The position numbers and the translations under genes were made by a program. Of a stretch of DNA of 37,897 nucleotides, positions 27,734-31,137 are shown piece after piece. Origin of the DNA: a bacterium (lineage in GTDB: Bacteria; Babelota; Babeliae; Babelales; Chromulinivoraceae); assembly GCA_947377595.1 (NCBI GenBank), contig CANCGK010000002.1:1-37897 (forward strand). Reading direction: 5' to 3'. Each line of letters opens with the position of its first letter. The stretch's first letter is position 1. The notes beneath the pieces are model-generated. The model was not told where the DNA came from, made no database searches, and saw nothing but the letters and a program-made list of their open reading frames with translations.

Positions 27734-27775
27734 TGTGGATAAGTGGTGGATAAGTGGTGGATAAGTGGTGGATAA
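27734..27775 (-). repeat. Left DnaA-box array, 4 units, 11-bp period
   Basis: tgtggataa gt ggtggataa gt ggtggataa gt ggtggataa. Confidence 0.9.
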
Positions 27776-27874
27776 CTTTCGACCCTATGTGCAATAATAG
27801 CTCTGAATCAATATAATGAGTAGCTTACCTCTGAAAACCTCGACCCAGAGCCTGTTTCCAGAGGTGAAAAAAAC

Positions 27875-27917
27875 TTATCCACATAGTTATCCACCACTTA
27901 TCCACCACTTATCCACA
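27875..27917 (+). repeat. Right DnaA-box array, 4 units, 12/11/11-bp spacing, inverted relative to left array
   Basis: ttatccaca tag ttatccacc ac ttatccacc ac ttatccaca. Confidence 0.9.
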
Positions 27918-28155
27918 TAAGTTTAAATTTTCAAAACATTGATCTGGAGAATGTTTTCGAATATTTTTTTTGAGTTATCCACCAAAAAAGTGTTCATCTA
28001 TTATTACTATTATTTTTTATATATATAATATAAGAATTATGAAGTTGAAGGAAAAACCTAAAAAGAATGTGAAATTTTCTTTTTTTGATTTTTTCTGCTA
28101 TCTTATAAATATATTCATTATTATATTATTAATTGTTGTAAGAAATATTTAAACT

Positions 28156-29235
28156 ATGTTACATAACGTAATATCAGAACTTGTTGATGAAAAAGGTTTA
28201 AAAAAATCTGATCTCAATGAGATTATCAAAGAAGGCATCTTAGCTGCATATTTAAAAAAATATCCAGAAGCTATTTTGCGTATAGAATTTGACAGATCTG
28301 GAGCTGTTACAGTTGAATCAGAAAAAAAAGTTGTCAATGAGTCCGATAACGAATTAACTCAAATCAGTATTCGTAAAGCTCGCTTTATAAAAAAAGGCGT
28401 GCAGTTAGATGAAACCATGTGGATTCCATTTGATGGAACTATTGGTCGAGTTGAAATTTTAAAAGCAAAACAAGTGATAGCCTCAAGAATTCGTGACGTT
28501 GAAGCTCTTAATGTTTATAACGAATTTATTGATAAAAAAGGCTCTATTGTGCATGGCACAGTTCATAAATGTGAAAATAGTGGCACGACAGTTATGCTAC
28601 GTGACACTCTTGCTTTTTTACCAAGATCTTTATCTATTCCAGAAGAAAGACATGTTGCTGGACGTCCAATTAAAGCCTTGTTGAAAGATGTTTATGCTGA
28701 ATATAGAGCTGGCGGACAACTTATTTTAGACCGTTCTTCAGGTGATTTTTTAATTAAATTACTTGAATTAGAAATTCCAGAAATTTATGACAAGCTTATT
28801 GAAATCAAAGGCGTTGCTCGTCAAGCTGGTTATAAATCAAAAATTATTGTAGCTTCAAATGATGCTAATATTGATCCGGTTGGAACATGTGTTGGTGTCG
28901 GCGGCGGTCGCATTAAGCCAATTTTAAAAGAATTGTGTACAGAAAAAATAGATGTTATTTCTTGGGTTAATTCAAAAGAAGAGCTTGTTAAAAATGCCCT
29001 TCGCCCAGCAGAAGTGAATAAAGTTGAAATTATTGACGGTCAAGCAAATGTTTGGTTGAGTGAAGATCAAAGAGCTTTTGCTATTGGTAAGATGGGGCAA
29101 AATATAGGTCTTGCAGCGCAATTGCTTGATGTTAACATTAATTTAATTTCATCTGGAAATTCAGAAAAATCAAGTGCTTTTGAGCACTCTGAGCAAGACG
29201 TTAATTATGACGTCGAAAATAATGACAATAACTAA
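28156..29235 (+). CDS. nusA: Transcription termination/antitermination protein NusA
   Basis: GILAAYLKKYPEA...S1-like GTVHKCENSGTTVML..., KH region NIDPVGTCVGVGGGRIKPILKEL, AIGKMGQNIGLAAQL; directly upstream of infB. Confidence 0.93.
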   Translation: MLHNVISELVDEKGLKKSDLNEIIKEGILAAYLKKYPEAILRIEFDRSGAVTVESEKKVVNESDNELTQISIRKARFIKKGVQLDETMWIPFDGTIGRVEILKAKQVIASRIRDVEALNVYNEFIDKKGSIVHGTVHKCENSGTTVMLRDTLAFLPRSLSIPEERHVAGRPIKALLKDVYAEYRAGGQLILDRSSGDFLIKLLELEIPEIYDKLIEIKGVARQAGYKSKIIVASNDANIDPVGTCVGVGGGRIKPILKELCTEKIDVISWVNSKEELVKNALRPAEVNKVEIIDGQANVWLSEDQRAFAIGKMGQNIGLAAQLLDVNINLISSGNSEKSSAFEHSEQDVNYDVENNDNN

Positions 29236-29253: not shown

Positions 29254-31137
29254 ATGCATATATACGAGTTTGCTAAAAAGTTTGATGTCGCTATAAAAGA
29301 CATCGTTGAACTCCTTAAAGAGCGTGGCGTTCGTCGAGCTGATGCAGAGTTCTCGCTATCAGAATCACATATTTCTTTTTTAAAGAAGCGCTTGCATTTA
29401 GGTGTTGTTAAAGAAGTTGTTGCGACAACGCGCGTTGATGTAGATATTGTTGATAAAGAAACATCTCTTGGTGATTTGGCTACTCAATTAGGTAGACCGG
29501 CAAGCGAAATTATAGTTTTTTTATTAAAACGTGGCATTGTTGCAAATATTAACAAGTTATTATCAAAAGATATGGTTTCTCTTGTTGCTCAAGAATACGG
29601 TGCAACAATTGTTGAGACTGCTAAAGACACAACAAATAAAAGTGGTGTTGTTAAGCAATCTTTAGAACGTGAACAAGTTGAACAAGAAAAGCGCGATCCA
29701 GTCGTTGTTATTGTTGGGCACGTTGATCATGGAAAAACTACATTGCTCGACTATATTCGTAAAGCAAAGGTTGCTTTAGGTGAAGCTGGAGGCATTACGC
29801 AGCATCTTGGAGCTTATAGCGTTGCGACAAAAAATGGCAACGTTGTGTTCCTTGATACTCCGGGTCACGAAGCTTTTTCGGTCATGCGTGAACGTGGTGT
29901 GAGTGTTGCTGATGTGGTTGTTCTTGTTGTTGCGGCTGATGATGGTGTAAAGCCTCAAACAATTGAAAGTATTAAAGCTGCTCAGTCATTGCAAGCTTCA
30001 ATCGTTGTTGCGATTAATAAAATTGATAAAGTTGATCAATCTCGCATTGATGTTGTAAAAAGAGATTTGTCTCAGTACGGATTGTTATCTGACGAATGGG
30101 GCGGACAAACTCCTTATGCGTTGATTTCTGCTAAAACAGGTGCTGGAGTTGATGATTTATTGGATTTATTAGCTTTACAAGCTGATATGCTTGATTTAGT
30201 TACTAATTCAAAAGTTGCCGCACGAGGTTACATTTTAGAATCACAAGTTAAAAAAGGCCGCGGTGCTGTTGCCTCATTGCTCTTGCATTGTGGTACATTA
30301 AGTGTGGGCGATTATTTCATTTGTGGAAATGTTGACGGAAAGATTAATTCTATCGTTGATGGTGCTGGCAATGTATTAAAATCTGTCGGACCTTCTCATC
30401 CGGTTTTGGTTTCTGGTTTTTCAGATTTACCAAAAGCTGGTGATTTGTTACATATTGCGACTCAAAAAGATATTAAAGTTCATCAGCAAGAAGTGTTAAG
30501 AGCTGCTGAAAATAAACAAATGTATGATGCATCTCAGCAGGCTTTAAATGTTATTGTTAAAGTTGGATCATTTTCATCTAAAGATGCAGTTATTTCATCT
30601 TTGCAAGCTATCCCGAGCTATAGATCATTGCCTATTCGTGTTATATCATCTGGTGTTGGCGATATTACCGTTAGTGACATTGAATTTGCAGAACAAGCTA
30701 AAGCGACGATTTATGGCCTTGATGTTAAATTAGAGCGTAATGCAGCTATTTTAAAAAGCGAAGTGCCAGTTAAGATTTATAATATTATTTATAAATTGAT
30801 TGATGATGCTCGCCAAGCTGTCCTTAAAACAAGACAACCTGAGTACATTGAAACTCAAGTCGGTAAAGCAACAGTAAAAGCAGTATTTAGAGTTAATTCA
30901 TCTATTATTGCTGGTGCTGGCGTTACTGATGGCGCTATGAAAAAAGGTTTGTTGGTTGCGATTTATAGAAATAGTAAAAAAATTGGCGAAGGCGTTGTTA
31001 AAAGTCTTCAAAAAGAAAAACGTGCTGTTGATATTGCGCCACAAGGATTTGATTGTGCGTTTCGTGTAGAATCGTTTGAATCTTGGAAAGTTGGCGATGA
31101 AGTTGTTTGCTTTAGTCGCGAAGAAAAGCCTTTTTAA
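29254..31137 (+). CDS. infB: Translation initiation factor IF-2
   Basis: VVIVGHVDHGKTTLLDYIRKAKVA...GGITQHLGAYSV...FLDTPGHEAFSVMRERG...NKIDK: IF-2 G motifs. Confidence 0.97.
   Translation: MHIYEFAKKFDVAIKDIVELLKERGVRRADAEFSLSESHISFLKKRLHLGVVKEVVATTRVDVDIVDKETSLGDLATQLGRPASEIIVFLLKRGIVANINKLLSKDMVSLVAQEYGATIVETAKDTTNKSGVVKQSLEREQVEQEKRDPVVVIVGHVDHGKTTLLDYIRKAKVALGEAGGITQHLGAYSVATKNGNVVFLDTPGHEAFSVMRERGVSVADVVVLVVAADDGVKPQTIESIKAAQSLQASIVVAINKIDKVDQSRIDVVKRDLSQYGLLSDEWGGQTPYALISAKTGAGVDDLLDLLALQADMLDLVTNSKVAARGYILESQVKKGRGAVASLLLHCGTLSVGDYFICGNVDGKINSIVDGAGNVLKSVGPSHPVLVSGFSDLPKAGDLLHIATQKDIKVHQQEVLRAAENKQMYDASQQALNVIVKVGSFSSKDAVISSLQAIPSYRSLPIRVISSGVGDITVSDIEFAEQAKATIYGLDVKLERNAAILKSEVPVKIYNIIYKLIDDARQAVLKTRQPEYIETQVGKATVKAVFRVNSSIIAGAGVTDGAMKKGLLVAIYRNSKKIGEGVVKSLQKEKRAVDIAPQGFDCAFRVESFESWKVGDEVVCFSREEKPF

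Follow-up and report, generated by a model that had tools for sequence, protein, structure and literature searches.

The locus described here raises the question of whether a cluster of DnaA boxes upstream of nusA, with no dnaA beside it, is the site at which a bacterial chromosome begins to replicate. The cluster occupies positions 27734-28035 of the stretch of DNA that we analysed in full (the window; 37,897 nucleotides, contig CANCGK010000002.1, our C2), which is one of 120 contigs of a 965-kb draft assembly (GCA_947377595.1) that is about 85% complete. The host is a tiny parasitic bacterium of the order Babeliales (phylum Dependentiae) and a congener of Chromulinavorax destructans; the closest named relative of its NusA is that of a Candidatus Babeliales genome (84% identity). 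A preliminary description made from the window had taken the cluster for the chromosomal origin, oriC. The comparisons below make it very probable that the element is indeed the chromosomal oriC of this bacterium, with forks leaving in both directions.

A sole cluster of DnaA boxes at a switch in GC skew

The element contains nine DnaA boxes, each spelled TTATCCACA or TTATCCACC, which form two opposed arrays and a solo box that is followed by DnaA-trios and an AT-rich tract (Table 1). The preliminary description had specified four left-hand boxes with a strict 11-bp period, a spacer of about 99 bp, four boxes of opposite orientation with a ninth at 27975, a 32-nt mirror block in the right array, a run of trios and an AT-rich tract beyond it, and all of these were recovered where they had been placed. 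Two details required amendment. The ninth box and the first trio are 14 nt apart and not 15 bp, and the mirror-image symmetry, which is exact for the last three boxes of the right array, is broken by the first step of that array, which measures 12 bp. The order of box, trios and AT-rich tract does correspond, as had been suggested, to a basal unwinding module; in particular, such a module is described as having a spacer of no more than 16 bp and at least three trios (PMC8287927), and here a 14-nt spacer leads into five trios, the consensus of a trio being 3'-GAT-5' (PMC8287927).

Chance clustering of the boxes can be rejected, since all nine TTATCCACM sites in the window fall within the element, whereas shuffled sequences are expected to contain 0.70 (maximum 4 in 100 shuffles). 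A scan of box density across the assembly, one of the checks put forward at the outset, revealed no other dense cluster: the rest of the 965 kb contains 8 scattered single TTATCCACM sites, close to the 7 given by a reversed-pattern control, and thus no second cluster of boxes.

We sampled GC skew along the genomes in stretches (in 10-kb samples for G001, a single-contig genome of 1,174,272 bp from the same genus group that we take to be C. destructans). Mean skew is -0.106 to the left of the element and +0.135 to its right, and, among the genome's 16 longest contigs, that of the window alone shows a change of sign. The skew check that had been proposed therefore places the flip at the array, and no minimum pointing to another site was found in the stretches sampled. 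In 19 of 20 relatives a local cumulative-skew minimum lies no more than 600 bp from the start of nusA, the exception being G024. Skew in G001 is negative up to 652 kb and positive beyond, and the return to negative values falls between about 70 and 120 kb; in G018 it flips at the array near 965 kb and flips back near 375-420 kb. As sampled, skew in each of these two genomes turns positive once, at the array, and turns negative once. Three features by which bacterial origins are recognised, a sole dense cluster of boxes, a minus-to-plus switch in skew and an adjoining AT-rich element, thus coincide at 27734-28035, and the original assignment to oriC is supported by the skew flip, by the single cluster and by the presence of the array upstream of nusA in relatives.

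Table 1. Coordinates of the putative origin and of the genes to its right (positions in the window)
Feature	Position	Strand	Remarks
Left DnaA-box array	27734..27775	-	Four boxes, TTATCCACA then three of TTATCCACC (minus strand); starts 27734, 27745, 27756, 27767; exact 11-bp period
Inter-array gap, 99 bp	27776..27874		Separates the opposed arrays
Right DnaA-box array	27875..27917	+	Four boxes, polarity opposite to the left array; starts 27875, 27887, 27898, 27909; steps 12, 11, 11
Spacer from right array to solo box, 57 bp	27918..27974		Length kept in relatives, sequence poorly; presumed bend site
Solo, DUE-proximal DnaA box	27975..27983	+	TTATCCACC; counterpart of E. coli R1
Spacer from solo box to first trio, 14 nt	27984..27997		Mostly 13-14 nt in relatives
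Five consecutive DnaA-trios	27998..28012	-	CTATTATTACTATTA on the plus strand; 3'-GAT/AAT on the minus strand
AT-rich tract	28013..28035		Likely unwinding element; directly after the trios
nusA	28156..29235	+	Pfam NusA_N and KH_5; conserved neighbour of the origin
infB	29254..31137	+	Pfam IF-2 domains; next gene rightward after nusA
DUE, DNA unwinding element.

The published presumptive origin of C. destructans, at 651641-652233, was called on skew and the box TTATCCACA, according to the account of the origin in that paper (PMC6561590). The tandem boxes of G001, at 651690-651871, fall inside this interval, and so the location had, on that account, already been proposed for a congener. The C. 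destructans origin resembles the one described here in lying upstream of nusA and in having opposed arrays, a solo box and trios; the published description of the origin makes no mention of the arrays, their mirror layout, the trios or the linkage to nusA (PMC6561590).

To the left of the element lies a gene for a clostripain-family peptidase. Inspection by eye of positions 28070-28120, and of the corresponding regions in several families, revealed, upstream of nusA, a T-rich stretch with a TAnAnT-like hexamer after it, which is possibly the nusA promoter.

The layout is widespread in the Babeliales

In a first set of 31 nusA loci, opposed arrays were present upstream of nusA at 30, and at 28 of the 31 the array boxes were within one mismatch of TTATCCAC; G025 and G032 have opposed arrays of TTATGAAC boxes, and G024 has no arrays. 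Alignment of nusA-upstream regions in relatives, also suggested in the preliminary description, thus shows the array to be conserved there. A second set comprised 26 genomes, 25 without exact TTATCCAC tandem boxes plus G101, which has very many. We found nusA in 18 of the 26, and arrays were evident, by reading, at 13 of these 18 loci (the reading being ambiguous at G041, G042, G052, G081 and G097). Loss of the origin in relatives that lack TTATCCAC tandem boxes was mostly rejected as an explanation, many of them having changed the spelling of their boxes. The opposed, helically regular layout is widespread in the order, occurring in at least 18 families.

Homologous left arrays mostly contain 4-5 boxes. 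Upstream of nusA in G101 (L359), the minus-strand array has grown to about 20-21 TTATCCACC boxes at an 11-bp period. Upstream of nusA in G024 (C12; L221:6480-7600) there are no arrays; a solo box of degenerate spelling, TTGTCCACA, is accompanied by trios, and a frameshifted fragment of DnaA domain IV lies between this box and nusA.

A fixed rule was applied to 47 loci; 7 failed it, and spacings were measured in the 40 origins that passed, which represent 18 families. The distance from the last right-array box to the start of the solo box is 67 bp in 23 origins, 66 in 12, 68 in 3 and 65 in 2, a narrow range that is partly built in because the rule admitted only 55 or 65-69 bp and would miss outliers. 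The sequence of this spacer has low information content between families, and comparison between families revealed no conserved protein-binding motif in it. Downstream of the solo box, the trinucleotide [CT]TA has its maxima at offsets 13/14, 16/17, 19/20 and 22/23, and it does not occur at 15, 18 or 21. Runs of three or more consecutive in-register trios were found in 26 of 39 origins, where shuffled sequences would give 0.18; in the other 13, trios are fewer or displaced. The gap between the arrays clusters near 99-102, 110-116, 121-125 and 133 bp in the 40 origins, with a period of 11-11.5 bp (R = 0.67, p = 0.0002 versus jittered gaps; p about 0.0007 with one genome per family). This periodicity fits both helical phasing and the gain or loss of whole 11-bp units.

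Box spelling often changes together with DnaA residue 433

Several lineages have most or all of their boxes re-spelled as TTATCAAC (G013, G017, G026, G064, G066 and others). Other re-spellings are TTATCGAC (G014) and TTATGAAC (G025 and G032), and mixtures occur of TTATGCAC with TTATCAAC (G020, G100) and of TTATCAAC with TTATCGAC (G048, G049). Residue 433 of DnaA contacts bases and is reported to be highly conserved in bacteria (PMC8235120). It is Asn in G011, G014, G020, G025, G032, G048, G049 and G100, whose proteins were aligned with 42 others, all of which have Asp; G051, outside this alignment, has Ser. Our own genome stands outside the comparison because its dnaA is missing from the assembly. 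Both traits were scored in 36 genomes. A TTATCCAC array box is lacking in 8 of them, namely 7 of 7 with Asn433 and 1 of 29 with Asp433 (G064); Asn433 was never found together with TTATCCAC array boxes in the seven Asn433 genomes that have arrays. The link was first seen in the first set of genomes and then examined in the second, in which G048, G049 and G100 fit it (G100 being of the same genus as G020).

Might this correlation be a by-product of shared descent, or of changes at other residues such as 423, and not a re-coding through residue 433? Such a reading is on balance somewhat improbable. It draws on there being only five to six independent contrasts, on the occurrence of Gln423 in many TTATCAAC lineages, and on G064, with TTATCAAC boxes and Asp433, and G051, with Ser, which together show that TTATCAAC boxes can occur without Asn. 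On the other side, a DnaA tree from which domain IV was left out requires no fewer than five changes to Asn433 on supported branches. Of 5 independent pairs, 4-5 conform to the link and none opposes it (a sign test with five pairs can give p = 0.0625 at best), TTATCCAC array boxes are lacking in every one of the 7 Asn433 genomes with arrays but in 1 of 29 Asp433 genomes, and residue 433 contacts bases. The association between box spelling and residue 433 is repeated and suggestive, short of proven. We lean modestly towards the view that the Babeliales share an ancestral design, consisting of strong, phased and opposed arrays beside nusA, whose alphabet has been rewritten several times, in all boxes together and in step with the change at DnaA residue 433, so as to form a natural series of initiator-origin re-codings.

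A proposed path from the right array to the trios

From the anatomy of the element and its conservation, the limits on its spacing, the sign change of skew and the correlation between boxes and residue 433, all of which are plain in the sequences compared, we infer how DnaA might bind, how the DNA might be bent and unwound, how the origin might fire and what the left array might do. DnaA would bind the solo box and the boxes of the right array, all of which point toward the AT-rich tract, and a protein of the HU/IHF family would bend the fixed 57-58-bp spacer so as to set the solo-box protomer against the array filament. HU/IHF-family genes occur in 33 of 33 genomes searched, with two in most, and hence a bending protein is available. 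The filament on the right array would then pass the solo box, engage the minus-strand trios and open the AT-rich tract, while the left array, with its opposite polarity, would carry a second filament that probably helps to load the helicase of the other fork.

The arrangement we favour is a path that starts at the right array and reaches the trios by way of the solo box, with the left array serving a second helicase. A different division, in which the right array, solo box and trios alone constitute the origin and the left array is a separate titration or control site, appears unlikely. Basal unwinding needs only the boxes adjoining the trios, the arrays are about 100 bp apart, and the number of left boxes varies, reaching about 21 in G101; yet the left array keeps its polarity across families, changes spelling along with the right array and stands at a quantised distance from it.

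Comparison with known origins

The element resembles oriC of E. coli in having left and right half-arrays of opposed orientation and a DUE on the far side of one of these, and in having a DUE-adjacent box that is split from the array of the same orientation by a spacer, which in E. coli, between R1 and the array, is the IHF bend site. The distance from box to DUE is also similar: in the deposited E. coli genome TTATCCACA is followed after 13 nt by CTAATAAGAG, so that 13 nt separate box and CTA, as compared with 14 nt here. Unlike the arrays of E. coli, which consist mostly of low-affinity boxes with 2-4-bp separations, those of the Babeliales are made up almost entirely of consensus or near-consensus boxes at an 11-bp period, and, as judged from box spelling, low-affinity boxes of the E. 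coli type that discriminate in favour of ATP-DnaA seem to be absent from this element. Most Babeliales origins also differ from that of E. coli in having no R2-like middle box and a longer run of trios. The likeness to the basal unwinding system of Bacillus subtilis lies in the DnaA box, the spacer of at most 16 bp and the three or more trios; the differences are that a single solo box, and not a recognised pair, stands beside the trios and that a distant array of the same polarity lies at a fixed length. Babela massiliensis belongs to the same phylum, and its origin was likewise called by GC skew (PMC4378268), but at dnaA, whereas here the origin candidate is beside nusA and dnaA is unlinked.

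We did not find dnaA in our assembly (G000) with its Pfam domain or with the protein of the congener, the latter search having had no positive control, and the DnaA C-terminal domain was not found in G004, of the same family, either. The gene is present in 29 of the 33 genomes of the set, congeners included; its absence from these two is probably an assembly gap. In G018, no more than about 60 kb separates dnaA (C2:371111, L101) from the reverse skew flip, and the gene is far from oriC; in G001 (C1:1117, L112) it is about 60-120 kb from that flip and equally remote from oriC; and in G019, G010, G030 and G021 skew on the dnaA contig also goes from plus to minus, at a distance of roughly 100 kb or less, at coarse sampling. 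In these six relatives dnaA lies toward the terminus, near the sampled plus-to-minus flip.

Several points weigh against assigning oriC to the element. The draft is incomplete and dnaA was not found in it, the relative G024 has no arrays and a weak skew, the rule by which origins were collected constrained the spacing it was used to measure, and the origin of Babela massiliensis has been reported 152 nt upstream of dnaA (PMC4378268). This dnaA-linked origin may reflect a genuine difference between lineages or an erroneous call. That the true origin lies elsewhere and the cluster is instead a DnaA titration or nucleotide-exchange site of the datA or DARS kind, or a nusA promoter under DnaA control, is highly improbable, because, although dense boxes do sit directly upstream of a gene and E. 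coli does have DnaA clusters outside oriC, the cluster sits where skew changes sign, both here and in 19 of 20 relatives, trios and an AT-rich tract follow at a fixed distance, and the assembly contains no other cluster.

Novelty and implications

The element is an oriC of a known general kind, and its location is not new for the genus. In a limited search of the open literature, mostly of titles and the openings of abstracts, we found no description of a nusA-linked origin or of coevolution between DnaA and its boxes, and no earlier description of an order-wide, regular layout of consensus boxes. The concerted re-spelling of boxes with repeated change of Asp433 to Asn is apparently new.

The interesting part is not where the origin lies; it is the order-wide geometry and the link between box and initiator. 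Bacterial origin layouts vary so much that their working rules are hard to see, and the regular layout of a single order, in at least 18 families, supplies fixed distances. Box spelling and DnaA residue 433, in turn, have repeatedly changed together, and this would provide matched natural pairs in which the recognition site of an essential initiator has changed without loss of the origin.
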